A stretch of 64,000 nt of DNA from Citrus sinensis. Its lineage: Eukaryota; Streptophyta; Magnoliopsida; Sapindales; Rutaceae. Every line of letters starts with the position of its first letter. Position 1 is the first letter of the stretch. Positions 8,653-63,935 of the stretch are shown here, in pieces. The stretch is from positions 35,799,001-35,863,000 of the forward strand of contig NC_068560.1 of assembly GCF_022201045.2 (NCBI RefSeq), written 5' to 3'. The notes beneath the pieces are model-generated. The model did not search any database, was not told the origin of the DNA, and saw only the letters and a program-made list of their open reading frames with translations. Both the position numbers and the translations under genes were made by a program.

Positions 8653-8996
8653 GTATGAAAAATCTTGCTCACATTTTGGATTTTTTCAGGCTAAGAGGGC
8701 ATGACAGCAGTGTATGACAACAGTAATGATTTTTCAACTGATCCATGGTAGATATTAAGACACATCAGAGAAAAAATTACAGCAATGATGGCGAAAAGTT
8801 ACGGCAAGTCTCACCTCAATGTTGACTGTCTCACGCCTCCAACCATCCACAGTAGATATTAAGACACTTCAGAGGAGAAATGCAGCCGTTGGATGCAATG
8901 GGAATTCGTTTATTATACGGTATTTGATAAATGTTTTAAACTTCAAGCCAGGGAGTAATAAGAAGATTAACGCAAAAAATGGGTACTCTGTGACTG

Positions 8997-8997
8997 T

Positions 8998-9063
<66 letters not shown>

Positions 9064-9064
9064 A
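8997..9064. repeat. Palindromic compound microsatellite (CA)n(TA)n(GT)n
   Basis: (CA)11 at 8999-9020 is followed by a 25-base TA tract (9021-9045) and (GT)9 (9046-9063). The CA and GT arms are reverse complements around the TA core, so the whole tract can fold into one hairpin or cruciform. Reading frames through it are artefacts. Confidence 0.95.
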
Positions 9065-9410
9065 GTCACTTACACCACACCACGTGTCCAACAAACATTA
9101 TAAATATGAATTCCGAATTAGAAATTAGTAACTTATACAAATCGTCAAAAGATGATTAATGATCAAATCAGAAACTTAAAATTCAAGCTAGTGTATTAAC
9201 TTCTTAAAATTCAAGCCAATGTATTAACTTAAGAGTACCTTGGATGTGTTAAAAAAAAATAATCACTTACACCACATCACGTGTCCAATAAATATTATAA
9301 ATATATATATTGAATTAGAGATTAATAACTTGTACAAAAAGTCTGGAGATAATCAACGATCAAACTTGAAGATCTAAACAATAAGATGTTACACCAATAG
9401 TGTATCTATC
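9065..9410. repeat. Diverged direct repeat
   Basis: The block from 9065, which contains 'cacttacaccacaccacgtg' and goes on through 'attagtaact', recurs from about 9262 with substitutions and small indels, as 'cacttacaccacatcacgtg'. The two ~150-180 bp copies flank a short segment with its own duplicated phrase 'ttaaaattcaagc'. This is likely an old local duplication in the GLR relic. Confidence 0.7.
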
Positions 9411-18194: not shown

Positions 18195-18950
18195 AGTTAA
18201 TTAAGTCGAGTATCTAGTTAAGTAAAAAGTGAAGTGAGTGAGTTCAGTAAATCGAGTATATAGTCGAACTAGAAGTGAGTCAAGTAAGTCAAGTAGTTAA
18301 GAAATAAGTAAAGTGAGTCCAGTATGAAGTCGAGTAAGAGTTGAGTAAGGGTAATTGTAAGTTGATTAAGTCTAATAGTAAATCGAGTAGCATAAGAAGA
18401 CTCAAATAATTAGTTGAGTAAGTTTTTTGAACAAGTGGAGCATGAGTCGAATAAACATCTTGAAAAAGTGAAGGGTCAAGTAAGAACAAGTCGAGTAGGA
18501 GTAGGGTAAATTCTTGAACAAGTTGAATATAAGTCGAGTAAGTCTTTTAAATAAGTTAAATAAGAACAAGTTAATTAGAATTCAAGTAAGTTTTGAATAA
18601 GTGAGTAAGAGTTGAGTAAGAGTCGATAGGAGTCAATTAAGTTTTTTAATAAGTGGAGTAAGGGTCATGTAAGTCTTTTGAATAAGTCAAGTAATAATAT
18701 GTCGAGTAAGAGTCATGTAAGTTATTTTAATATGTCGAGTAAGAGTCATGTAAGTTTTTTTAATAAGTCAAATAATTTTTTTTGTACAAGTCAGATGGAG
18801 TCGGGTAAGTTTTTGAACAAGTCGAATAGGGGTTGAGTAAGTCTTTTAAATAAGCCGAGTAGAAATCTAATAACCTTTTGAGCAAGCCAAGGAGAAGTTG
18901 AATAAGTTTTTGAACATGTCCAGTAGGAGTATAGTAAGTTTTTCGCTTGA
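18195..18950. repeat. Degenerate minisatellite based on GTCGAGTAAG
   Basis: About 750 bases are built from imperfect copies of a ~10-base word (aaGTCGAGTAAGag), often combined into longer units such as 'agtcatgtaagtttttt'. It is strand-asymmetric: G, A and T dominate and C is scarce on the plus strand. Copies vary too much and spacers are too irregular for CRISPR. No coding potential is seen. Confidence 0.8.
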
Positions 18951-25934: not shown

Positions 25935-28900
25935 AGATTGGTTTTTCCATTCAATCAGGTTGCTGCTGATTGAATGTCATCCTCCAAAGAGCAGTCTGAA
26001 TGCTGGTGAGATCAAACAAAAAATGATCTGACAATGTGAAACTGGCACTGGGTGGTTTTAGTTTTGTATCCTTCCCAGCTATAGATCTTTTATGATTGTA
26101 TTCTATCCAGCTATTGATCTTTCAAATGGTCATAAATGGCTCTTAATCAGTCATTTCTATTTTTCCCTTGTCAATCCACCTTTTATTGATAACTTAGATG
26201 TGGCATCTTCGATATGTGCGACGGTAAACCCTACTTGGTTTTTTTTTTTTTTATCAATCAATATTGAAGTATTAATTGTCGCATAAATGAAGCTTTGATG
26301 TGAATCTTCTAATATAAGGCAAATACTAAGTTATATTTAATGTAACTTACACCACTCAAACATATTATGCAGGTTCCACACAGGTATTACTGTTCTTGTG
26401 AGTGGTGTAAGTGACATTAAATGTAACTTAGGGGCTCCCTTAATATAATATGCTTGTGAAATATTAACAGTAATTACATAACGTGGTGGAGCATCCAATT
26501 GCTTCTTATTGAGACGCGATTTGCAGCTTGTGTCCAGAGGGATTGGGGATTTGGCGGCGTTGGGCCGGAGTGGATGGCCCAATGACCGGTACCGATGCTT
26601 TCTGGAGTTCAGGCCTATGATGGTCACGTTGGCATGGACCAAAGCTTCTTCATAAGACGTTAAGAAGATCGAGGAGTAGTGTGATTATTTGACTCTTCCG
26701 AGTTCCGACATCCGTTATAAGTCTCACTTTTTAATAAATCTCATTTATTTTACAGTTACATAAGTCATGTGTCCTTTCTAAATTCAAACTTTTAATGTAA
26801 ATGGAGGTAATTTTTTTTATTAGAGGGGTCAAATAAATATTTTTAGATTTATTTTTTAACAAATAATTTGCAAGATTTTCAAATACCTTGGAAGAAAATG
26901 ATTTTTTGGTGGCTAATCTCAATTTTAAGAATAACTTGTAAGATTTTCAAGCATAAGATAGAGCAACAACAACATGCAATTTGTCAAAATGAGTTTATAA
27001 TTATCAAATTAATTGTTGACAATTTTTTTTTTGGAGGGGGTTGTTTAACTAGAGATTAGTCCAGTTACGCAGTTTAATCAAACAAAATGATGGTTGATGA
27101 TGAGTATCTAAGTGCGTCTTCTTGCTAATGCATGAAAGTAACACGGTTTAGTTAATTTCTCGAGGATGGAAGGAAAAGGAAAAAGAAAAAAAGGAGGGAG
27201 GTCGCGGCTGAAGATAATTTGGAAATAGTTGATGATGACCATTGACCAGGCCGAAAATAAAAGTGAAAAGGAGGAGCACAAAATCCTGCCATCACCATGC
27301 AACATTACCGTCACCAATGACGCTGTTCGAGATTCGCACTGATATCATGAACCTGTGGCTCTGCTAGCCAATTCATGACAGTGTGAACGCGTATGTCGAT
27401 ATACTTACCAGTTACCACGCACCCATAATTCCTGAAAACTATAGTAACTAAAGACAATAAATACCGGACATGATTACTCCGAGGGAAACAAATATATTCG
27501 CATAATAAAATAATTAAAAGATAATATAACAATGATTTGGGAGTATATGCATGAAGGATGAACCCTCACTGCAGAGACGTCAAGTGCGTACTTTACCTAG
27601 TAATCAATGATGGAATAAGTGGGTTGAAGACCTGTCGTGATCTTGTAAGATTCTTGTTAATTTGTTTTTGTTTATTACCTCGATCCTGTAGCCAATAATT
27701 GAAGCGCCTTTTGGAGAACCTCCAGCTGTGTTGATAGTTATGTTAACATCGACCCTTCGTCTCTCTCACTGCCCAATCTCACCCTCAACCACCAATTTCT
27801 TTTCTTTTTCTTTTCTTTTCTTTGTTAATTTGACTACATCTATGTGTATGTATCTATACCTGCAAATTAATGACGAACAGCTAGCTAGCTCCATAGAATC
27901 TATATCTCTCTTTTCCGCTAGTCAATCCAGTTGCGTCGTTATCTTCGCCTCTATATATGTAATTACAAAAGTAAAGTATGCAGTGGCCAGTGGCTTATCT
28001 TTCTTTCTTTCTTTCTTTTCTTATTTTTGCTTTATCTCCCCCTTTGTTTCCACTCATTTTCGCAATCATTTCATAGAAAAAAAAAAAAAAAAAATTGTTT
28101 AGCCTAATCTTAAATTCTCTATCGTTCATTTCATTTGTTAGCCCATGGAGCTCAATCGGCTAATTACCATTATGTATACATTACTTAATTTCTTCCTTTT
28201 TGATAATCACCTGCTGTGTTGCGGCCGTCACATAGGATATTCTTGAACAACAAGACAAAAGCTACAAATTTTGAGAAACTTGATGATGTGCTTGAGGATT
28301 GGGTTGTCGATCGATGAAAGAGATGGCAAAGCCTATCGGAACATAAAGAATGATATAATTGAGAAAAGAATTGAAGAAAAAAAAAAATCTGTAGAACGTA
28401 TATTCTTTTTCCAAACCTTTTTAATTAATTATTGGGATCCCTTTTGACTCTTCGGTACGTGAATCAATTTCAAAAACCATATTGGTAGGGGGGGGCGGGG
28501 AGGGGTGCTGATGGATACAAGTTGCGATGCGATGCGATGGTAGTCCATACCGGGCGCCGTTGGCTCCACAATATGCATAGACAAAACAATGAATTGATGA
28601 GGAATTCAAATGCTACTTTAATTGTGATCATTAGTTTCTTTCATTCTCTTTTTAGATAAATTATTATTCTCTTGCCTACAAAAAAAAAAAAAAAAAAAAA
28701 CAGCGTCAATAAGCTTTCAACACTAAGTGGGGGGGGGGGGGGTTGATGGGGGTGTCATTCACAGCTTGTCTTTGATTGTTCATTTTTATGCCAGGCTGTC
28801 ATGCAAAAATTTGTCTTAAATCTTAATGCTCAAAATATGTGCTAGCTAATAAACTGATCAGAATCCTAAAGATTAACGTGTAGTCTAGAAGCTGACATTA

Positions 28901-34190: not shown

Positions 34191-34370
34191 GATAATATAA
34201 TTAATTATTGTATGAGTGAGATATGTAATTGAATTTAATATAATTACTATTTACATATTAGTATTTTAAAAAATAAATGATATATGTGATAATATCATTT
34301 ATTTATTGTATGACTAACATGATACGTCTAATATATTCTAGATTCTTCTTTAAATAAGATATATCATAGA
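34191..34370. repeat. AT-rich dispersed repeat, uninterrupted copy
   Basis: It matches the two halves that flank the MITE at 41684-41810: 'taatttaatataattactattt'-like sequence, then 'tatgtgataatatcattta', 'ttattgtatgactaacatga' and 'attctagattcttctt'. It works as an empty-site comparison for that nested insertion. The family is unknown. A further inverted repeat pair ('taatacatatacgacat' and its inverse) follows at about 34396-34490. Confidence 0.6.
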
Positions 34371-37300
34371 GCGCCTCTATTAAACTATGCCCACTTAATA
34401 CATATACGACATACATATATGAATTAAATATGACTATTAATTATATGATGATTTTATATTTATGTCATATATGTATTAAATAAGTGCAGTACAATATAAG
34501 TACTCTAAAATTTCTCCCTAAATAACGTGGAATGTAATCACTAATGTGCTTTTATTTTTAGTTGATAAATTTTGTATGTTTTAAGTGAATTATTTATACT
34601 ATTTGTGCTTGGGTTTTGTACAGGCACAAATAGTTGCGCATCTTATATTGTGCTACTGTGTGTATGTAAAGATTTTACGATAAAAAGCTGTAAGTCGTGG
34701 GACCCATTTCTCTCTTCCAAATCTTAATAGTGTGCAACTGTGCGCACAAAGCGATTCCTCATCTATTAATTACAAATGGTTCTTGGTGCATTGAAATATA
34801 ATCGAGTTCCATGTTTGTTCGGGAGAGTTCCACGTTTGCACTAAACATGGCTCTCCGTATACAATTGACTTGGATGGGCCCACAACGAAACCAATCAGGA
34901 CCACTAATCTTGTCATCGGAGATCCTAAGAATTCTGAGCTGGATGTCACTCTTTACCACGTCGGCCCCGCCCCCAAAATTTCCTTTCACGCTCGCATATT
35001 TTTTCGTCCATCTTTTTTGTATCACTATTTTTTTCCCCCCAAAATTTACCTATCATCTACCTGGATAACTTCGAAGTCGAGCAGTTCAAATCTCCTCGTC
35101 TAATTATTATGAAATTTTATTATATTTTACTTCTTTAAAAAAAAAAAAAATTATCTAACGGTTATTAAATCTCTTATCCACCCATGTGAACGGGATTCAC
35201 ATCACATAACTCTTATTTTTAACACAAAATATTGAATCATCTCAACTGCGTAACATACTCTTATATATATATATTGGTGAATGGTTAACATATTATAATG
35301 TCAGTTTTTATTAAACAATTTATAGTAAATGCTCATTTGATTCCTATAGTTTAAACTAACTATTCTATTAGTGCTTGTATTTTCGCAAATAACCTAAAAC
35401 ACTCATGTAGATACTATTCTCGAAGCTGTTGGATCTACAGCTCAAACTAGCATTTTCTGCTTAAAACAACTTAAATTTTTAAATAAATCTGATATACAAC
35501 AGGTAAAAAGTATATGATAAGTAAGTATATCTTAATGAAAACATATGTACAATATGGACTTTTTGGTAATTTTTTGAAAATTCAAGGTACTCCAGCAAGG
35601 TTATAAGTCAAATTGTTTTAACTAAGATATAATATGTAAGCTAAACGCAATTATTTTTCAAATCAACGTCAAATTTAATGGATGAAGTTTGAAGAAAATA
35701 TTTGAAAATTTGAGTCAAAATTACGAACGTCATCTGACGTTGGTGACATTTTTTATGGTTGCTTCGTTAAGGAACGAAGATTCCAACAATACAAAATTGA
35801 TTTACAAATGTTGATGGTTGGCGACAAATGACAAATAAGTGTGGTCGCGATGAGTAATACTAATCATAGATGAAGTTTTTATTTTTAAACAAAGAATTAA
35901 TGTAAATAGCACATTACAAAATATTAAGATATTAATTTACGTTGTAAAGACCTCATTCTACACCAACAATGATACACAACTCGGTTGCCCATAGGAGCAC
36001 TATTCATACAATGCACCGAAGTTTCCTAATTTCTTTTTTTTTTACTACAAAAATATTTCTTCAAGTGAAAAAAAAAAAATTACTACAGATGGCTTTTTAT
36101 AGTTTATGATGAACAGATGAAGCGTGTCTTGATATTATGGTTGGGTCCACATCTATTACTTTATTATTACTATTATTTTTAATATTTTCGGTAGCATGGT
36201 AACTATCACATCAAGGACTCGTATTTGGTTCTTCCTTTAAACTCTTGTTTATCGGCTTATTATTACATGCGGCGCAATAATCCATAGAATGCATGATACA
36301 CGAGTTACCGTTAAATCTTGAATTTTCCCTCAATATCGGCCTAAGCCAACACCCTTTCACACATCATCATCTTTTGTATTCTTCTTTCCAATTTGAAGAG
36401 TTTAATTTGTTCTCATCTGTCCGTAATGTCTCCAGAGACCACCAGATATATGTATCCTGTGCTCCTCAATATATAACTGTGCAATTGCGTGTTTCTTGCA
36501 TCAAATATGAACCGTTTCAAACAAATCTAATTAATCAGCAAGGTGAACTTAATTAATAATTTAATATTCGAAATGCGCCCAGTTAGGAGAACTAATTAAT
36601 ATTTAGTGGTTCAAAATTCAAACTTTTGTTTTCCCGTCTGAGAAGTTATGGCAATTAGGCCAAGGTCAATTAAGAAACCGCTAGTTGTTTCTTGTGATTT
36701 ATCGATTAAGTGAATGGTCGACGACTTTTAGCCTTATGTTAGATTACCTGTCTAGACTGCAAAATAAAACGGCTGATTACAGTATCCCATTTTGTCTTCA
36801 AAATGTTTAGAAAGTTTTATCTTTTGAAGCCTTAATTTCTTCCTGATTTGATGTGTATACATACTCCTTGAATTAACGAACATTCAGGGCCAGGATCCTT
36901 CACAATCTCAAGAGCAGATTTTTGTCGTCCTTGACTACATTTCTAGTAAAATCAAGAAAACATAACGGGGTAGTTAATTTGGTGGCAAATTAGATCACGT
37001 TTGTGTGTTCCAAATTCGAACCTCTGTTCCTCAAATGTAATTATGATCCGCAAGTCATTTTCTCTGGTCCAGGACGTATTTGTTTCACTAATTTTTTTTT
37101 TTATTAGAAAAAAGCCATGAGGAGTTTTGCATGGAAACCATTAATTCGGTACCAAAAACCCTGCCAGCTGCGGCTTAAGAGAATCTACGAAACAGGGGCT
37201 GTAGATTGTTTTAGTAAACAGCTGATAACAAAAAATCAGTTGAAAAAGAAAAATATGTGTTTAAAAAGGCTTTTTTTTTTTCTTTCTAAAACTTGTCCGG

Positions 37301-40672: not shown

Positions 40673-41628
40673 AAGAGGCAGCATGGTGCTACTATAATTC
40701 TACAGTCGAGATGCCATTATTAGTCTCCACCATTTTCTATAATTTTATTATCATTGTATTTTTGGGTAAGCAATCTGTAATTTGATTGAAGAGACTATAA
40801 CATCCCTTCCAAGCATCTAGGAATATAATATGATTTCTTTTCTGTTATATCTCTTCACACATTCTGTAATTTGTATTTTGCAATCTCTAATTAGCTAATA
40901 TATGTAGTTTATTTCAATTGGAAGTATTCTAGGGGAACAGACTGAAATTGAAACATGTCTTGTTTTTCCCTTTTTTTTTAAAGAAAAAAAAAAGCCAAGA
41001 AGAAAAAGATTTGCTCACTCAATATTAATAAAAGGAAAATGCTAAGTATAAAAAAAACGAAAGAAGGACGAGAGAATTAAGCATGTGGTGGGAGAAGAAA
41101 GAGAAAAAAAAAAAGCTGACAAGGGAGAGAGAAGAGGTAATTCTCTCATTTTTCTCTCGTTGTTCTTGATATTTAGCAGCCCTCTTAATAAAATAGACAC
41201 TTTAAAGGAACACAGAAAAATAAAAAATGTCTGCTTAGGTATGGAATGGAGATTGGATTGCTTCTACCCCACACTAATTTGAATCGGCTGATATTATGTT
41301 TTTTAAGCAATCCAATTCACCATGACGCCACGTCTCCGTCTTTGAATCGCCGCAGCGCGTGCTCCTTGCTCCCTACCACAGGCTGCAAAAGTAGCAGCCA
41401 TGTGTCATTGAGCGACAGGCCAAAAAGAAATGGTGGTGTCTCCAGGCTCCGGCTGAAGGGTACCCTCCAAAATGACAAAATCTGCTAACTGCTGCTTTTG
41501 CAACCTTCCTCCCTAATGGACCCCACTAACTAGTAAACGTGGCTAATTGAGTTTGGTTGTCAAAACTATTCAAACTTTCTATATTTTACCTTTGTTTAAA
41601 TTTTAAAATACCTCAGGTGTATTATATT

Positions 41629-41925
41629 TAATTGATGTATATATGACATATATAATTAAATTTAATATAATTACTATTTATATAAGGCTAATGTTAAGTT
41701 ACATGCATGTAACTTACAACCCTCTCACATAAATAGTAAATAGTGTGGGTCCACTCACTATTTATATGAGAGGGTTATAAGTTACATGCACGTAACTTAA
41801 GAGGATCCTTTATATAATGGTGGTTCAAAATATATACACATATGTCATGATATCATTTACTTATTGTATAACTGATATAATATCTCAAATGTATTCTAAA
41901 ATTTCTTCTTAGTGAGATATCTGCT
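41629..41925. repeat. AT-rich dispersed repeat interrupted by a MITE
   Basis: The halves 41629-41683 and 41811-41925 together correspond to the uninterrupted copy at 34191-34370. The break point falls exactly at the ends of the foldback MITE, showing the order of insertion. Confidence 0.6.
41684..41810. mobile_element. Foldback MITE, copy 2, nested in an older repeat
   Basis: It is 127 bp. The arms pair over about 45 bases: 'ttaagttacatgcatgtaac', then 'ttacaaccctctcacataaa', with their inverse. The outer ends are AAGGC...ATCCTT. TATAT flanks lie at 41679-41683 and 41811-41815. The same ends, arm start (TTAAGTTACAT) and size as the 26316 copy define a family. No coding capacity. Confidence 0.75.
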
Positions 41926-42677: not shown

Positions 42678-44206
42678 TCAATTGTCGTTAGAGGTTGTTG
42701 ATGTGTATTTAAGAATTGCTGCATCAATTCTTTCTTTGTCTCGGGTTGGAAATGCTTCCACTAGAGCTCCATTTTTGTAGAAGTGGAAGAGAGGAACTGT
42801 CTGCATCATTTCAAGGTTATCTTATAGTCAGTGAAGGACAATCGAGTAAAAACAGAACTCAGAAATGCTTTGTAGACTACTTCAGCGTTCAGGCATATTT
42901 CTTTCAAACAATGTTGAGAAGAAAAAGAAAACTTATGAAAGCAAAGAAAAGAAATTTGTGCAATAACCACAAAAAAGTTATTGCACAAATTTCTTTTCTT
43001 TGCTTTCATAAGTTTTCTTCTCCTTCTCAACATTGTTTGAAAGAAATTTGCCTGAAAGCTAGTCTCTTTACTCCCCCCAGTTATCTTAGCAAGCTGCATT
43101 TTGTGATTAATCATCAGAATTGTGGAAAAATTTAACAAAATCTAGTGAAGGATTTCCTAGAAAAGAACCTGAATTAGCCGCAAATAAAAATTTCCGAAAG
43201 CACCCCAGTCAGTCAGTTGATCGAAATTTTAGAATCTTTACTTTTCATACTAAGTGATGTATATAACACTTGCCATCAAAATAAATTCATTGAAGGTAAG
43301 GAACAGTACGAAAGAAAAGTTTACCTTTATTTTAAGACGTTCAGCGACCTCAGATTGTTCATCATACTCATCAATCACCTGTAAGAAGACAGCATATTAG
43401 CAATTGTCTGTTCCAGAAAATATAGAAAGTTGCAATGAACTATAAAAAAACTAAAAAAGAAGGGACAAAAGCTACTGGGAACCCAAATTCTGTTGGCTAT
43501 TTGTAAGAATACTCCATACTCAGCCTAATTACCAATCGACTAGCAAATTGAATTCTGAAAGACCCTATTAAACAAAAATCAACATTTTCAGCTCAAAACC
43601 TTTGATGCCAAGGTTATCTAAGGAAATCGAATAAAAGAAAACTAAAGTTAGTACAGATGATGAAAAATTAAACACAGATATGCGTAACTTGAATACAGTT
43701 TGGACAAGTCAAGCTTATAAAGTACTCACATTATGTTTTAAGAAAATTACTGGAGCTTCCTGATCACCGGATCCCTTGCATAATTTTGAAAACCCCTGCT
43801 CTATATACTTGCAGCTTCCACAAGAGGTGCGATAAAAATCTACCACAACTAAAGACCCAGTTTCTTTGGACTTTTCCAGTATTTTGAAGAACTCCGCATC
43901 AGTCTTAAATTCTCTAACACATTCAACAGGACAAAGATCATCATCTTCATCAGATTCCCCTTGAGTTGCATCAATGAGACCTTTGACTTTTCCATGTCTC
44001 AGGTTATGGTTACTTTTTAAAGAGGCTAAACCTGTACTTTTACTTTCAAATGGAATTCTGTTTCTGGTCCTCATGCAAAAAGATTTAGCACAAGTTCTAT
44101 CACGATGCAAGCTGGTTACCATACAGGGAACTTTAGAACTGAATTTTCCATCTGCATTTCTCCCCCCAAACAGGGCGCCTTTGTAAAAAATATTCTGCTT
44201 TTGCAT
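42678..44206 (-). CDS. Thioredoxin-like 4, chloroplastic
   Basis: Three coding exons on the minus strand: 43730-44206, 43325-43378 and 42678-42800. They total 654 bp, or 217 residues, in frame. The start (MQKQNIF) is the first ATG after a stretch lacking one; the extension upstream in the same frame uses no ATG. A non-coding first exon probably lies at about 44965-45070, ending at a CGAG|GTAAGCG donor. The basic, Ser-rich N terminus suggests plastid targeting. An acidic run and CPVEC (92-96) follow, then the thioredoxin fold SLVVVDFYRTSCGSCKYIEQ with active site CGSC (129-132), and VPLFHFYKNGALVEAFPTRDKERI with the cis-Pro of VP. The usual WCGPC is replaced by SCGSC, as in the At1g07700-type proteins. 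This predicts disulfide exchange, but the client is unknown. Intron 2 (42801-43324) holds a large hairpin. Confidence 0.9.
42891..43053. repeat. Intronic hairpin with 77-bp arms
   Basis: Arms 42891-42967 and 42977-43053 are reverse complements at 74 of 77 positions, separated by a 9-base loop (CCACAAAAA-type). The structure lies wholly inside the second intron of the thioredoxin-like gene, so the pre-mRNA can fold it. Pairing is continuous, without the bulges usual in a conserved miRNA precursor, which resembles a young MIR gene or an hpRNA that could feed DCL enzymes. Apparent reading frames on both strands here mirror one another and are artefacts. Confidence 0.9.
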
Positions 44207-49419: not shown

Positions 49420-50996
49420 ATGAGTACGCTAAAGTCATTCTGCTTCCTCTCTTTTCTTCTTGCTATCTTCCTCCCTTTCACATCTCCAGCCTTATTGTTC
49501 CAGGTAAGAATTTACTTTTTGAAAAAAAAAAAAAGGCACATGTATCGGTAGCGTACATACAACTTGCAATCTAATTTGTTGAAGAAATTGATGATGCGTA
49601 GGGATTTAACTGGGAATCAAGTAACAAGGCAGGAGGATGGTACAACTCTCTGAAGAACTCCATTCCTGATCTTTCTAATGCTGGAATTACTCACGTCTGG
49701 CTTCCTCCACCGTCTCAATCCGTTGCACCCCAAGGTACTTCTTGTACTTTCAGCATTTGCTTACTGAGTCTTCATAATCATAATCATGTTTATCCTTTGA
49801 TCTCAATGTCTCTGACCCAAAACTTCTTCCAGGATACATGCCGGGGAGGCTATATGACCTTGACGCATCAAAATACGGATCTCAAGCTGATTTGAAGTCT
49901 TTAATTCAGGCTTTTCGTCAAAAGGGAATTAAATGCCTTGCTGATATGGTCATAAATCACCGAACTGCAGAGAGGAAAGATGGTAGAGGCATATATTGCA
50001 TTTTCGAGGGTGGAACATCAGATGACCGTCTGGACTGGGGTCCGTCCTTCATTTGTCGTGGCGACAAGGAGTATTCTGACGGCCAAGGGAATGATGATAC
50101 AGGAGAGGACTTCCAACCAGCTCCTGACATTGACCATCTCAACCCGAGGGTACAAAAAGAGTTATCCGACTGGATGAATTGGCTGAAGACTGAAATTGGA
50201 TTTGATGGATGGCGATTCGATTTTGTTAAAGGATACGCCCCTAGTATCACCAAAGTTTATATGGAAAATACCTCCCCAGATTTTGCAGTCGGGGAGAAAT
50301 GGGATTCCCTTTCTTATGGGCCTGATGGAAAGCCTGATGCTAATCAGGATGGACACAGGGGAGCACTCAAAGATTGGGTTCAAGCCGCTGGAGGGGCTGT
50401 CGCAGCTTTTGATTTCACCACGAAGGGTATCCTCCAAGCTGCTGTGCAAGGGGAGCTGTGGAGATTAAAAGACTCGAACGGCAAGCCGCCAGGATTGATA
50501 GGAATTTTACCACAAAATGCTGTGACTTTTATTGACAATCATGACACAGGGTCCACTCAACGTCTGTGGCCATTCCCATCGGATAAAGTCATGCTTGGAT
50601 ATGCTTACATCCTCACACATCCCGGCACCCCTTGCATAGTAATATCTGTTACTTATCCTCTGTTTCATCCGTTAAATGTGTTGGAAATTTAGCTGCAGAA
50701 TCTGTGTTTGTGCTAAAGTATATATGCATGGTCTTGTTGTGCAGTTTTATGATCACTTCTTTGACTGGGGTCTGAAGGAGGCGATTAGCAAATTGGCTGC
50801 TGTCAGAAATAGGAATGGGATCAATACGGCAAGCAGAGTTAATATTTTAGCCTCAGATGCCGATGTCTACATTGCTGCAATTGGTGATAGAGTCATTATG
50901 AAGATTGGACCAAAGATGGATATTGGAAATCTTATTCCTTCTGACTTCAAAGTGGCTGCCGATGGAACCGACTATGCTGTCTGGGAAAAAAACTGA
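49420..50996 (+). CDS. AMY1: Alpha-amylase (EC 3.2.1.1), secreted, GH13
   Basis: Four coding exons: 49420-49503, 49602-49734, 49833-50638 and 50745-50996. They total 1275 bp, or 424 residues. A signal peptide spans about residues 1-24 ([18 protein letters not shown]), and the mature protein begins near LLFQGFNW. GH13 motifs: DMVINHR (110-116); [10 protein letters not shown] with nucleophile Asp202; AVGEKW with acid/base Glu227; FIDNHD with Asp310. The plant C-terminal beta-sheet domain ends [12 protein letters not shown]. It hydrolyses alpha-1,4 links in starch; a signal peptide and lack of a plastid peptide place it in the secretory (AMY1) class, with Arabidopsis AMY2/3 non-secreted or plastidic. 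SQSVAPQ at the exon 2 end replaces the usual SQHAAPQ. Length is standard. Confidence 0.93.
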
Positions 50997-53026: not shown

Positions 53027-53315
53027 AGAATGTATATTAATTTTTTCCCAAGTGAGCATCCCCCTAATCTGGGAGCTATACTTCAAACTGGATCCGGATC
53101 TCCAAATGGTACCGAATGCTGGGTAATAGGCGGTAACCGGTGGACTTCAATTAAAAAGTCAAAACCCTAAACAAGAAAAAAAGGAAAAAGCCAAAAACCG
53201 CAACGCTCCGATTTCAAATTTCGAACTTGGCGCCCTTCGCATCCCCAAATCAAATCTACTCTCATTGCATTTGCACCAACAGACACAGAAGGCAAAATCA
53301 ACCGAGAAATTGAGA

Positions 53316-56300
53316 ATGGGTGGGTCTCACAGTCGCGAAGATCTCGATATCTCAGACTCCGAAGATGAATATGAAACGGAACGTGAACATGAAGAAGAAG
53401 ACAACTACGAGGACTGCAAAGATGAAACCCCGGATAGGTCCTCTTCTTCTTCTTCGAGACGCAGACCCAAAACGCCTTCGTCTCTGGACGAAGTGGAATC
53501 TAAGCTTAAAGCCTTGAAACTCAAGTACCCATCAGCTGCTCAAAACCCTAACGCCGTCAAGCTTTACCTTCACATCGGTGGCAACACACCAAAAGCCAAA
53601 TGGGTCACTTCCGAGAAACTCACTTCTTATTCGTTCCTCAAAACGTCAAGAATCGACGGCCGTGGTGAAGAAGAAGAGGATGATGATGATGGAGAAGGCG
53701 AATGTGAAGACCCTTTTTGGGTATTGAAAGTTGGTTTTAAGATTCGAGTCAAAGTCTCCGCGGAGATGCAATTGAAGACCTTTAAAGATCAACGTCGTGT
53801 TGATTTCGTGGCACAAGGTGTGTGGGCTATGAAGTTTCTTAGTGACGACGATTACAAAATTTTTGTTACTAAGTTTCAAGATTGTTTATTTGAGAACACT
53901 TATGGGTATGAATCTAATGAAGCAAACAAGCTGAAGGTCTATGGCAAGGATTTTATTGGGTGGGCTAAGCCTGAAGCGGCTGATGATTCGATGTGGGAGG
54001 ATGCAGATGATAGTCTCTTGAAAAGCCCTGGGTCAGCAACTCCATTAAGGGCTAATCAAGATTTGACAGAGGAGTTTGAAGAGGAGGCCAACGTAGGGAT
54101 ACAAAGTTTGGCGTTGGGTGCACTGGATAATAGTTTCTTGGTAAGTGATTCCGGTATCCAGGTTGTTAAGAACTATAGCGATGGCATTCATGGGAAAGGT
54201 GGTTTTGTGAATTTCAGTGGTGGCAATTATAGGAGCAGTTCCAATTTGGTCCATTCCACACCTAAAAAGGCACTTCTTATGAGAGCTGAGACTAGTATGT
54301 TATTCATGAGTCCAATGAGTGATGCAAAGCCTCATAATACTGGGTTACATCAGCTTGATATTGAGACAGGAAAGATTGTTACAGAATGGAAGTTTGAGAA
54401 AGATGGGACTGATATTACAATGAGAGATATCGCAAATGACAGTAAAGGGGCACAATTAGATCCTTCAGGTTCCACATTTTTAGGATTGGATGACAATAGG
54501 CTTTGCAGATGGGACATGCGTGATAAAAATGGCATTGTTCAAAATCTTGCAAATGCTGGCGCACCTGTGTTGAATTGGTCGCAGGGGCATCAATTTTCCA
54601 GGGGGACTAATTTTCAATGCTTTGCAAGTACTGGTGATGGCTCAATTGTTGTTGGGTCTCTTGATGGAAAGATTCGGTTGTACTCGAGCAATTCTATGAG
54701 ACAGGCCAAAACAGCTTTTCCTGGCCTGGGGTCACCTATTAGGTACGTGGATGTTACCTATGATGGAAGGTGGATATTGGGGACTACTGACACCTACTTG
54801 ATCCTTATCTGCACACTTTTTACTGACAAGAATGGTACAACAAAGACTGGTTTTAATGGTCGTATGGGAAATAAGATTGCTGCCCCGAGATTGCTGAAGC
54901 TGACTCCTCTGGATTCACATTTGGCTGGAGTTAATAATAAGTTTCATAAGGCTCAGTTTTCTTGGGTAAGCATACTTATTTCTTTATTGAGCTGTTTACA
55001 TGTGGTTGTTTAGCCGTTGCACTACCAATGAATCTAGTATGATTTACATCTGTCATGCTATGCTCAAATGGTCATTGGATATGAATTGAGGAACTCTTTT
55101 CATATTTCTTCATCTGGGGTCTTGCACACTGCTACTGGATTTTTGTGGTGTTATTCTTGTTTTTCTTTTTCAGTGCTTTGAAGTTGTGCGTTTTTTCTGT
55201 TTAATGGTTCATGTGCCTGCCTTACTGTAGCGGCCAATGCTGTGTTTTGGTTGCTATAATTGTTTTGTAGATTAGTTGGTTTTAGTAGGCTGTTTCCTTC
55301 TCAGTTTGCTAAATGTATTATGTTATCAGATAAGGTTTGCAAAGTTTTATAGTTATGGATTTATTCAAACTAGGCAGACATGAGCCATGGTCTAAACTTT
55401 TAAGTGATATTTTGCATTATTGTTCAGTTACTTCACTGGAGAATTACTCAAGGGAGATGTGCTTTTCATGCTCAGAAATTTTGACCATTTGACCTGCCTC
55501 AAGTTGCATAAGTTTGTTGTCTCTTTAAACTATAATGGTTTTTATATGAATGTTTTACTGAGTTTTGGTTGCTTAATTGTTTTCTGGATTAGTTGGTTGT
55601 TAATGATGTTGTTTCCTTCCCTATTTGCTAAATCCCTTATTTTAAAATATAAGATTTGCATATGATATGTTGTTATGATGTTTCTCCAAGCTTTTAGCAC
55701 TATGATTTTTGAGAGAAGAAAGAAAGAAGGCTAAAAGGTTGAGGAATGAAACAGTTGGCAAGTCAGAAAAGAATTTAGATTTTGTTTTTTTTTTAACTTC
55801 TGCAAAATAAGACCGGCATTAACTACAACGAGAATAAACAATTAGGTTAATTGTCAAAAATGAAGAGAAATTTTAGGAAGCCCAGAGCCCACCATGGCTC
55901 CGCCTATGCAAACATAATTTTATTAATATGGTGGAAGAGTCTCCTTTCCTACAACCTCACAGTAAACTTGGATGATCATGCCCTATACTTGCTGCTCATT
56001 CTTTTGTTAATTTTGTATAATGAACATGCTTTGGTCATTCAAAGTCCTATGGACATCTTAACTGTTTTGTGTCTCAAATTTACATAGGTCACTGAGAATG
56101 GCAAGCAGGAACGCCACCTGGTCGCAACTGTAGGCAAGTTCAGTGTGATATGGAACTTTCAACAGGTGAAGAATGGTTCTCATGAGTGCTACCAGAATCA
56201 GGAGGGCCTGAAGAGCTGTTACTGCTATAAAATAGTTCTCAAGGATGACTCCATTGTTGATAGTCGTTTCATGCATGACAAATTTGCAGTCAGTGATTTG

Positions 56301-59893: not shown

Positions 59894-62800
59894 TTATGTT
59901 GATGATGACTTAGATGCATGTGATCTCCTTCGAGCCAAAAACATAAAAAGCCTTGGAAACAATGACTTCTTCTTTTTCTTTGGACCCTTGGCTTCTGGAG
60001 ATGATTCAGTTTCAGTGTTACTTCCTTGCATAGATGCCTTTGGGCTTGTCATATTAGGAACAGCGGCAGCCGACGACATGCGGTCATACTTCTTTGAATC
60101 TTTCTTCTCCTCCAAACTTGGTGTCGGGATTTTTGTGGAGTTTACACCTTGACCAGATTCACCGGCTTTTCTTCGTTGCTCATGTTCTGCCCTCCACTTT
60201 CTCAACTCCTGTTCTATACCCAACTTGCCTTCCTTGGCCTTCTCAGCTTTCTCCATCGCAACTTTCAGCGCTTCTTTCCTTGTTGCTATCTCCTTATTGA
60301 CTTCTTCCAACCTCTCCAAGCTTCTCAACTCAGATGCTTTTGCTACCTCAATTTGAGAGATGGCAGCAACCACCCTCATGTTGGCCTGTTCCTCTGCCTC
60401 ATGGGCACGCTTGCTGAGCTCATAATACTCCTCTAAAGAAAGTGTTACACCAGTAGGAGAATCCACATCATCAGTCCTTTGAGCTGATTCACTCTCTTGC
60501 AATGCTTTGATAGCAGCTAAAGCTAACTTTTCGGATGCCCTGGCAGCCTCTATCTCCTTTCGTGCGGCAGTTAATCTACTCTCGATGGTACTTGCTCCAG
60601 CCTTTGCCTGCTCTGCTTCTTCCTTTGCCTTGTGAAGCTCTTCACCAGCGGCCTGAGCAAGTGACTTGGCCTGGTCAGCCTCTTGGGCTGCTACCTGTAG
60701 TTGCTTGGGTAGCTCTACTGTCTTCTCCCGAGCTTCTTTCTCTTTCATCTGAACAAGAGCTATTTCAGACCGAGTCCTGTCCAGCTCAGCTTCCAAAGAA
60801 GCAACTGCGACTGATGCCATTCCTTCTCTCTGCCTAATGGCAGCAAGGGCCGATTTTTCCCTTTCAAGCTCTGATTGTAAGGATGTGGCTGCCACCTTCA
60901 AGCAATTGACTTCAGCAGTAGCTTTCTCAATGTTTAGCTTCACTTCTTCCAGTTCCTTCTTTGCGGAAGCAACCGCTGCTTGTATATCAGTATGAGTTTT
61001 CCTCTCTGGTTCCTCCAATTCACCATTTGAATGTCCTTCTTCATTGGATTCTTCTTTCAGTTTGGATTCCATATAAGCTGATAATTCAGCTTTCAAATCA
61101 AGTAGCAAGGCTGAAGCAGTGTCTAGTTTTGATCTAAGGTCCTTTGCTGAAAGAATTTGCTGGGTAAGTTTCTGAAGTTCCTCTTCTGCCTGCTTCAATT
61201 CCTTCTCCCAAAGGTGAGAATCTTGATCTCTGGCCATTGCTGCCCCTATTCTTTGCTCTTCTGCCTCCAGATGAGCAGCATGTGCAGACTCTAAGGACTC
61301 CTTGGTAGCAATTAGCTCAATGGTCAGTTCCTCCACTGTTTTCTCAACTTCCTTGGATGCAGAAATAGCCTCTTCAGCCTTCTTTACAGCTATGTCTTTT
61401 TCAGTCACCAAAGAAGCATAATCCTTGCGCAATGATTCCACCTCGTCTTTAACAGATTTCAACTCAGAAACTGCGGCAACATGCCTGGCTTTGGCAACCT
61501 CAAGCTGTGCCCTGGCTGCAACACTGGCATCATCAGCAATGCCTTGCTCCATCTCCTCCACCCTGAGCTTGGCTAATTCAGAGTCTTGTTTTGCCTGATG
61601 TTCTTCGGTCTGTGCCCTCTCCAGATTAAGTTTTAGTTCCTCTACTAATCTCTTAGTTTGGTCCAGCTCCTTGAGTACTTGGTTTTTTGCCACTTCAGCG
61701 GCCTCAGACCTTTTCCTGTATTCAGGCATCTCCTCATGTGACCTTTCCAGTTCTTGCTCCACATATTTGCGCCTCTAAATGACCAGAGAAGGAATTTAAT
61801 AAAAGTCAATTTTTGGAAGAAACAATTTTTTTGTAAATCACATTGCTATACAATGCAACTTTCAAAGTCAAGTCTTCACATTAGCATTCCTTGAAACATT
61901 TAAGAAGATGAAGAAGAACAAAATGGATAAAGAAAGTGGGGAAATAGCAAGATTCAAGAAATAAACTTTTGACAATAAGTCAAAAACTGAGTACTCTTCT
62001 CATTCTTAAAAATGGTAAAATAATATTAAATAAAACATCAGAAAGAAATCATTTTCCATAAGCAGAGAAACAGAATGCTTTCTTTCTGGTTGATATCAAG
62101 CATATGTTTAGCCCTTGTGTCATTCCAACCACCAAACATACCCAGCACTATAACCTCACAACTATAACAACTCCCACCTCAACAAGTGACAGAAGTGCTG
62201 CTGCAGACGATCACATAACCCTAATATGCAAAGAGTAATTTCCTTTAATTTGTATCACTGTAATAATAAAGCTGCCTTTAATGATACCGTATCTCTTAGG
62301 AAGATGGACTCAAAACAGAAACATATTATCTGTAGTCCTCACAAGGCACCTAAGTTCATTTCCATGATATCTCAGCAAGTAATCATTCATTAATTCCCCC
62401 GTGTCACAAATCTGTTAAGGTGGAATGCATCCTTACACCAACTTCAAAAATCCTAGCCAGTTTATTCAGTAAAATTAATAACAAAACACACACCTTAATT
62501 TTATTTTAATTGTGATGTTGAAAGCAGTAAAGACAAAGTGAAAATGATATTAAGTTGAGACTTCAGAAAAAGAAAACTTGAGATCAAGGACAATTAAACC
62601 AAAGAAATGAAAGGTCCATGAAATTTCAACAAGGGCATCTACAGGTATTCTGGCTTTGAGAAATCTTCTCTATCATCGCCACCTTCACAATGCCTAGCTC
62701 CTCACCACTAAGATACCAATATGGCCTCCTTTACCTTCTCTATAGCTAACACATCTCATAAATGCAACTAGCCAACAACTCATCACCATTTTATTCAGGT

Positions 62801-63935
62801 CATTGCCTTTACAACTGCCATCATTGCACCATACTTCACAATAGCTCACCAATTTAATGACACGCACTCCAATTATACATAATCACTTTGACAATTGCTG
62901 TATACGAAACAAACTTATTGTTTTAGCTTTGCAGCAAGGCGCAACAAAAATATCATGACCAAATATTAGCAAGCATTATTAGAGTGCATACAGTAGGTCA
63001 ACCACGCAGTGGTATAAAGGAATCATAATTAATACAATGCAGCAAAATAAGTCAATCTAATAACAAAGCCAAAAGACATATACCTCCACAGTTTGCATTC
63101 TATGGGCTTTCCAATCAACAATTCCACCAAACTTTGACACAACTTCCTTAACTGACTCAAAAGGTGCTGTTGTATCAATAAGACCTCTCTTCATTTCACC
63201 CTGCTTCGCAAGTTTAGGAGAACTGATACCATATCTAGGAGAACCAAATTGTTTAGGAGAACCAAAAACATGCTTGGGGGAATTGACGAGATGTTTAGGA
63301 GAATTCAAAACATATTTAGGAGAATCACCAGATTTAGGAGAATCCAAAACATGTTTAGGAGAATTCAAAACATATTTAGGAGAATCACCAGGTTTAGGAG
63401 AATCCAAAACATGTTTAGGAGAATCGACAGTTCCTGGTGCTCTCACAGCAATACTGGCCAGCTCTGTATGGGGCAGAGCAAGCTTATCTGATGGTTCAAT
63501 GCGTTGGTCATCTCTAGAATCATGTACCTGAGGAGAGGAAACAGAGGGTATATCGCTGTTATCAGTATGAACATGGGAATCAATGACAGAACCATCATCT
63601 TGAGATTGCTTTCCATTAGGGTTATCTTGCGTGGCTTCAGTTTTAGAATCTTCCATCACAGTATCCCTATGGTCTGTCTCTGATTCATCAATTGCAACCG
63701 CTGAATTTGAAACTGAATTGTCTGCTGAAAGGACTTCATCCTGTCCCCCAACCGGGACATCAGCAGTATCTTCTACGGGTTTTGGTTTAGAAGTTTCCAT
63801 ATTTGACAACTCATTAGATACTTTTCTATTAGTAACTGGGTCTTCCGGAAGCTCACTGGAAGAACCATTATCAGCTTTGGGAGATAAAGTAGACTCTGGA
63901 GGAGGCATCTCTTCAGCGATTTTAACATCCTCCAT
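59894..63935 (-). CDS. WEB1: WEB1-like protein (weak chloroplast movement under blue light)
   Basis: Two coding exons on the minus strand: 63084-63935 and 59894-61774, joined across a 1.3 kb intron. They total 2733 bp, or 910 residues. Exon 1 (residues 1-284) is an acidic, Ser/Pro-rich disordered region with repeated SPK motifs (about 170-243), then the conserved [21 protein letters not shown] and [11 protein letters not shown]. Exon 2 is an almost uninterrupted coiled coil (DUF827): [10 protein letters not shown] at the junction, [62 protein letters not shown] and [21 protein letters not shown]. It ends with a basic [22 protein letters not shown] tail (start of tail about residue 880). WEB1 works with PMI2 in blue-light chloroplast photorelocation through actin. 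Arabidopsis WEB1 is shorter (about 800), and most of the surplus is in the N-terminal region. Confidence 0.93.
61775..63083. other. Single intron of the WEB1-like gene
   Basis: A 1309-bp intron with ACC..AG-type minus-strand borders (GT donor at 63082-63083, AG acceptor at 61775-61776). No coding exon, inserted element or structured RNA was recognised inside. Confidence 0.75.
63205..63428 (-). repeat. In-frame coding minisatellite (SPK repeats) in WEB1
   Basis: Tandem units of about 30 bp encode variants of [19 protein letters not shown]. The largest event is a 60-bp direct duplication, 63301-63360 against 63361-63420, identical at 59 of 60 bases, adding 20 residues without a frame change. 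Each unit offers a Ser-Pro-Lys site of the type used by proline-directed kinases. Confidence 0.92.

Follow-up and report, generated by a model that had tools for sequence, protein, structure and literature searches.

The second intron of a thioredoxin-like gene of Citrus sinensis contains a long, nearly perfect hairpin, found in a stretch of 64,000 nucleotides (the window). Established here are the hairpin itself, where it lies, how stable it is predicted to be and that the reading frame of its host gene is intact; the structure is genuine and far beyond chance. We read it, with a probability of about 0.55, as a fairly recent intronic foldback of ~180-190 bp that would be transcribed passively with its host and diced into mixed siRNAs. 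An intronic foldback is an already known kind of feature. The parts of the hairpin and of its host gene are listed by position, with the basis of each assignment in parentheses.

42678..42800, minus strand: exon 3 with the stop codon (boundary sequences, joined frame)
42801..43324, minus strand: intron 2, 524 bp, GT...AG (boundary sequences; the joined exons form an open frame)
42874..42883, no strand assigned: likely outward continuation of the left arm, AGACT with five unmatched bases (gapped alignment)
42884..42967, no strand assigned: left arm, 84 nt (repeat search, mismatch count)
42968..42976, no strand assigned: hairpin loop, 9 nt (repeat search)
42977..43060, no strand assigned: right arm, 84 nt, 80/84 complementary to the left arm (repeat search, mismatch count)
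43061..43065, no strand assigned: likely outward continuation of the right arm, AGTCT (gapped alignment)
43325..43378, minus strand: exon 2, 54 nt (boundary sequences, joined frame)
43730..44206, minus strand: exon 1, coding from the frame's first ATG onward, with a CGSC motif; start codon putative (translation; Pfam)

The original prediction had described two 77-base arms (42891-42967 and 42977-43053) that match at 74 of 77 positions across a 9-nt loop, and the repeat was recovered exactly so. The full ungapped inverted repeat is somewhat longer, with 84-nt arms at 42884-42967 and 42977-43060 (80 of 84 matching, same 9-nt loop), which adds seven bases on each side for one extra mismatch. The four arm mismatches fall at 42887/43057, 42896/43048, 42922/43022 and 42924/43020. 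In a gapped alignment, AGACT at 42874-42878 pairs with 43061-43065 past a 5-nt gap, and the element may span 42874-43065.

Folding of the intron had also been called for in the original prediction. The region 42830-43120 was folded on both strands and is stable on each: the minus strand reaches -144 kcal/mol, where its shuffles average -61.8 (z -16.1), and the plus strand -134.4 kcal/mol (z -21.2), and equally good folds appeared in 0/200 dinucleotide shuffles of either strand. A search of the window for arms at most 600 bp apart gave 132 inverted repeats; the hairpin heads the list of the 25 longest, followed by one with 54-nt arms at 87%. The ungapped inverted-repeat score of intron 2 is 72, while the maximum is 11 in 60 mononucleotide shuffles and 35 over 122 window tiles of 524 bp; since the tile grid happens to split the hairpin in the loop, these tiles serve as background.

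When the exons at 44206-43730, 43378-43325 and 42800-42678 are joined, the frame stays open up to a stop codon and codes for 217 aa, counted from its first ATG. The encoded protein matches Pfam PF00085 (Thioredoxin, E 2.2e-12), in agreement with the thioredoxin-type host that had been proposed. Among the best 60 of 86 matches to solved structures, a thioredoxin (8ys1, E 1.9e-11) comes first; of those called chloroplastic, thioredoxin-like 2-1 (6lyw, E 5.1e-11) ranks highest. The host may be TRL4 (thioredoxin-like 4), the name used in the original prediction, which agrees with the Arabidopsis protein. Pfam gave no match for the two open frames of at least 100 codons (111 and 140) that run through the hairpin.

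Placement of the hairpin wholly within a 524-bp second intron, likewise claimed beforehand, holds: intron 42801-43324 encloses it on both sides, as expected of siRNA-generating introns or hairpin-siRNA loci. Between the hairpin ends and the splice sites there are 73-83 nt on the 3′ side of the intron and about 260 nt on its 5′ side. Because the hairpin leaves the splice sites free, splicing should go on. We rejected a mirtron, which shares the location in an intron but has ends made by splicing; here the hairpin ends (42874/42884 and 43060/43065) stand apart from the splice sites of intron 42801-43324.

The two strands of the hairpin differ in pairing. Of the four differences between the arms, two are A/G transitions, which pair as G-U only in the sense transcript and leave A-C mismatches in the antisense transcript. 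The longest unbroken helix is therefore 72 pairs on the sense strand and 43 on the antisense strand. With just two informative sites this is only a hint of selection for sense-strand pairing, which we do not claim. The sense stem would suit a substrate resembling long dsRNA, being free of the bulges that would set a single miRNA register; as judged from the predicted fold, such a long stem points to mixed hairpin siRNAs more than to a single, precisely cut miRNA.

The preferred reading starts from either a palindromic miniature transposon with unrecognisable edges or a local inverted duplication, which would have left the foldback in the intron. The hairpin would ride passively in the host pre-mRNA, itself presumably transcribed, and would fold into a stem of ~80 bp. 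Dicer-like enzymes would process this stem, at a low level, to mixed siRNAs of 21-24 nt, and the siRNAs may direct CHH methylation of the same intron. The hairpin may also be lost with the intron and degraded, with zero small-RNA output.

Published hairpin figures are priors on the class and not data on this locus; in the extract of the maize study used here (PMC10760457), 76% of predicted genic hairpins are intronic, and the genic hairpins show a small-RNA density about 89-fold above non-hairpin regions together with CHH methylation peaks, the median length of the predicted hairpins being only 25 nt. For Arabidopsis, an extract of a review (PMC12595863) counts 885 inverted repeats, of which 634 lie no more than 3 kb from a gene, with 24-nt siRNAs from around 486 of those 634 and a likely transposon origin for about 68% of the near-gene repeats. 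Local inverted duplications can yield uniform miRNAs, heterogeneous siRNAs or anything in between, and 16 Arabidopsis MIRNA loci are of recent inverted-duplication origin (PMC1790633, in extract). In rice, inverted duplication is assigned as the source of 93 of 290 miRNA genes (PMC3237417, in extract), and 153 miRNAs are intronic, with methylation via their 24-nt forms proposed (PMC3661559, in extract).

The closest known systems share some features with the hairpin. Sirtrons (siRNA-generating introns; PMC5545994, in extract) also have a hairpin in an intron of a protein-coding gene that can in principle be diced without an RNA-dependent RNA polymerase; siRNAs from introns are their known product and would be only a predicted one here. 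Near-gene inverted repeats and the MITE-derived hairpins that give 24-nt siRNAs (PMC12595863, in extract) are likewise short and genic with near-perfect arms, but the present hairpin has no convincing target duplication and no family in the window. Young MIRNA genes born by inverted duplication (PMC1790633 and PMC3237417, in extract) have the same long, nearly perfect foldback; they differ from the present hairpin, which has no Rfam family at the cut-off and no parent gene in the window.

Two accounts of the origin overlap with the preferred reading, one of a degraded MITE, the other of an inverted duplication made locally; we hold them about equally likely, each at a little under even odds. 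Under the first, the hairpin belongs to a multi-copy family of MITEs or foldback transposons and consists of two long terminal inverted repeats. Its terminal inverted repeats and short length are those of MITEs, two related foldbacks with 9- and 8-bp duplications (41684-41810 and 26315-26442) occur in the same window, and about 68% of the near-gene Arabidopsis inverted repeats are attributed to transposons in the extract of PMC12595863. Against this, the longest in-register flanking repeat is 2 bp, and a 7-9-bp duplication should stay recognisable at about 5% divergence; nor does the 64 kb hold a second copy. Under the second account, template switching or snap-back synthesis produced the inverted duplication locally and no transposon took part. 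The short 9-nt loop, the uneven outer ends and the results that tell against a MITE, namely the lack of a convincing target duplication and of related copies within the window, favour such a duplication, but none of these points is specific to it.

The original prediction had seen no obvious target duplication at the edges of the hairpin, and two scans bear this out. When flanking direct repeats were sought in the two arm registers, tolerating one mismatch from 7 bp and two from 9 bp, the longest was 2 bp and none reached at least 3 bp. Seven in-register flanking matches of 2 bp were found, one of them TA; chance could produce these. In a scan with free edges (at least 5 bp) the sole match was a 5-mer, with its right edge well within the right arm. 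A transposon that makes a 7-9-bp duplication was rejected, as neither scan found one, and a 2-3-bp duplication of the TA or TTA type is possible from the flanking bases. A comparable free-edge scan (exact, 6-10 bp) found 9 bp and 8 bp at two control foldbacks, 41684-41810 and 26315-26442, and so is able to detect duplications in this window; it is an imperfect control since their AT-rich, partly palindromic ends give several overlapping matches and make chance matches likelier.

Many near-identical foldbacks elsewhere with target duplications of their own had been named beforehand, together with an absence of small RNAs, as grounds for regarding the hairpin as a mere MITE. A BLASTN search with 7-base words found no second copy within the 64-kb window, only short weak matches; the best other match to the arms is 37 nt long at 78% (E 0.004) and lies in the purine-rich arm part. 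Exact 20- and 22-base arm fragments were absent from the viral_contigs and genome_contigs collections, which are viral and prokaryotic and uninformative on plant copy number. A 17-base arm fragment occurred in 10 viral contigs and was taken as a chance match. The alternative already offered in the original prediction, a tiny foldback element, fits at least as well as its young miRNA gene.

The Kimura distance between the 84-base arms is 0.049 (about 5% divergence). At substitution rates of 1.3e-8 to 2.5e-9 per site and year the distance suggests an age of about 2-10 million years for the hairpin, a figure that arm-to-arm gene conversion could make too young.

The original prediction had favoured a young miRNA gene or a hairpin-siRNA locus. 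Its siRNA part is plausible, on structure and on the published behaviour of hairpins; its miRNA part gained no support from Rfam, the literature or a parent gene in the window. We consider it unlikely that the hairpin is a young MIRNA gene, from which DCL1 would release one defined miRNA of 21-22 nt with a regulated target in trans. The hairpin does form a foldback precursor with few duplex mismatches, as plant MIRNA genes do. Its fold, length and intronic position are permissible for young plant MIRNA genes, and there are precedents for miRNAs of inverted-duplication origin and for intronic miRNAs (PMC1790633, PMC3237417 and PMC3661559, all in extract). The sense stem, however, is without register-fixing bulges.

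Many sub-threshold Rfam MIRNA matches, with E down to 1.2e-15, could also be counted in favour of a miRNA, but none reaches the cut-off and control palindromes show them to be unspecific. Rfam 15 gave 0 matches for the whole window at the gathering score and 149 listed matches for 42860-43080 at E up to 10, none of which reached the cut-off, a family match being no requirement for a young MIRNA gene. Among the matches listed, the best by score was MIR841 (73.1 vs 200 bits, E 1.2e-15) and the one nearest its cut-off was MIR1888 (55.3 vs 72 bits); the 149 also include bacterial, animal and viral families. Three control regions were searched at E up to 1e-5. A foldback (41660-41840) gave 8 matches (best 7.8e-12) and a simple-repeat palindrome (8960-9100) gave 22 (best 1.2e-12), none at the cut-off in either case, and a weaker foldback (26290-26470) gave 0. 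Since two of the three control palindromes give similar matches, the sub-threshold E-values of the hairpin mostly reflect pairing. Known MIRNA families were ruled out at the Rfam cut-offs.

Twenty-four arm fragments of 13-14 bases (23 distinct), which cover the arms in part and were sought in DNA and RNA letters on both strands, occurred in no plant paper among the main texts of 5.39 million papers. The one paper with a match, on AdipoR2 of humans and C. elegans, matches a single pyrimidine-rich fragment and was taken as chance. Within the window there was no parent gene or target-like similar sequence.

The hairpin could also be a newborn intronic silencing locus, whose abundant small RNAs would target either the intron of its own host or a different transcript, with selected sense pairing; we regard this as improbable. 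An assembly artefact from a fold-back read is least credible of all. Chimeric reads can create near-perfect palindromes, but four arm differences, uneven outer ends and a proper surrounding intron are unlike one sequence read back.

Intronic hairpins are one proposed route to small-RNA production from a gene without a prior silencing signal. With one hairpin of datable age, this thioredoxin-like gene could allow the process to be traced cleanly across relatives, but only if small RNAs are found; at present the hairpin is an ordinary, well-formed example.

Some other features of the window were recorded. The foldbacks at 41684-41810 and 26315-26442, with 9 bp (TTTATATAA) and 8 bp (TAATATAA) duplicated at their flanks, are related to each other, have GG...CC-like ends and form a MITE family, perhaps of the Mutator type. 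An AT-rich repeat links 34233-34257 and 34428-34513 to 41598-41684 (25 bases at 96%; 87 bases inverted at 72%). A long palindrome at 8990-9069 is made of CA/TA/GT simple repeats, and at 18622-18943 units resembling AAGTCGAGTAAGAGTC are repeated in degenerate tandem fashion with several periods. Pfam identifies as neighbouring genes an alpha-amylase (49784-50692), DUF7135/VID27 (53307-55013) and WEMBL (59897-61774), the last named for weak chloroplast movement under blue light. Nested tandem repeats with periods of 21, 39, 60 and 81 lie at 63212-63425, within a long minus-strand open frame of repeated peptides.
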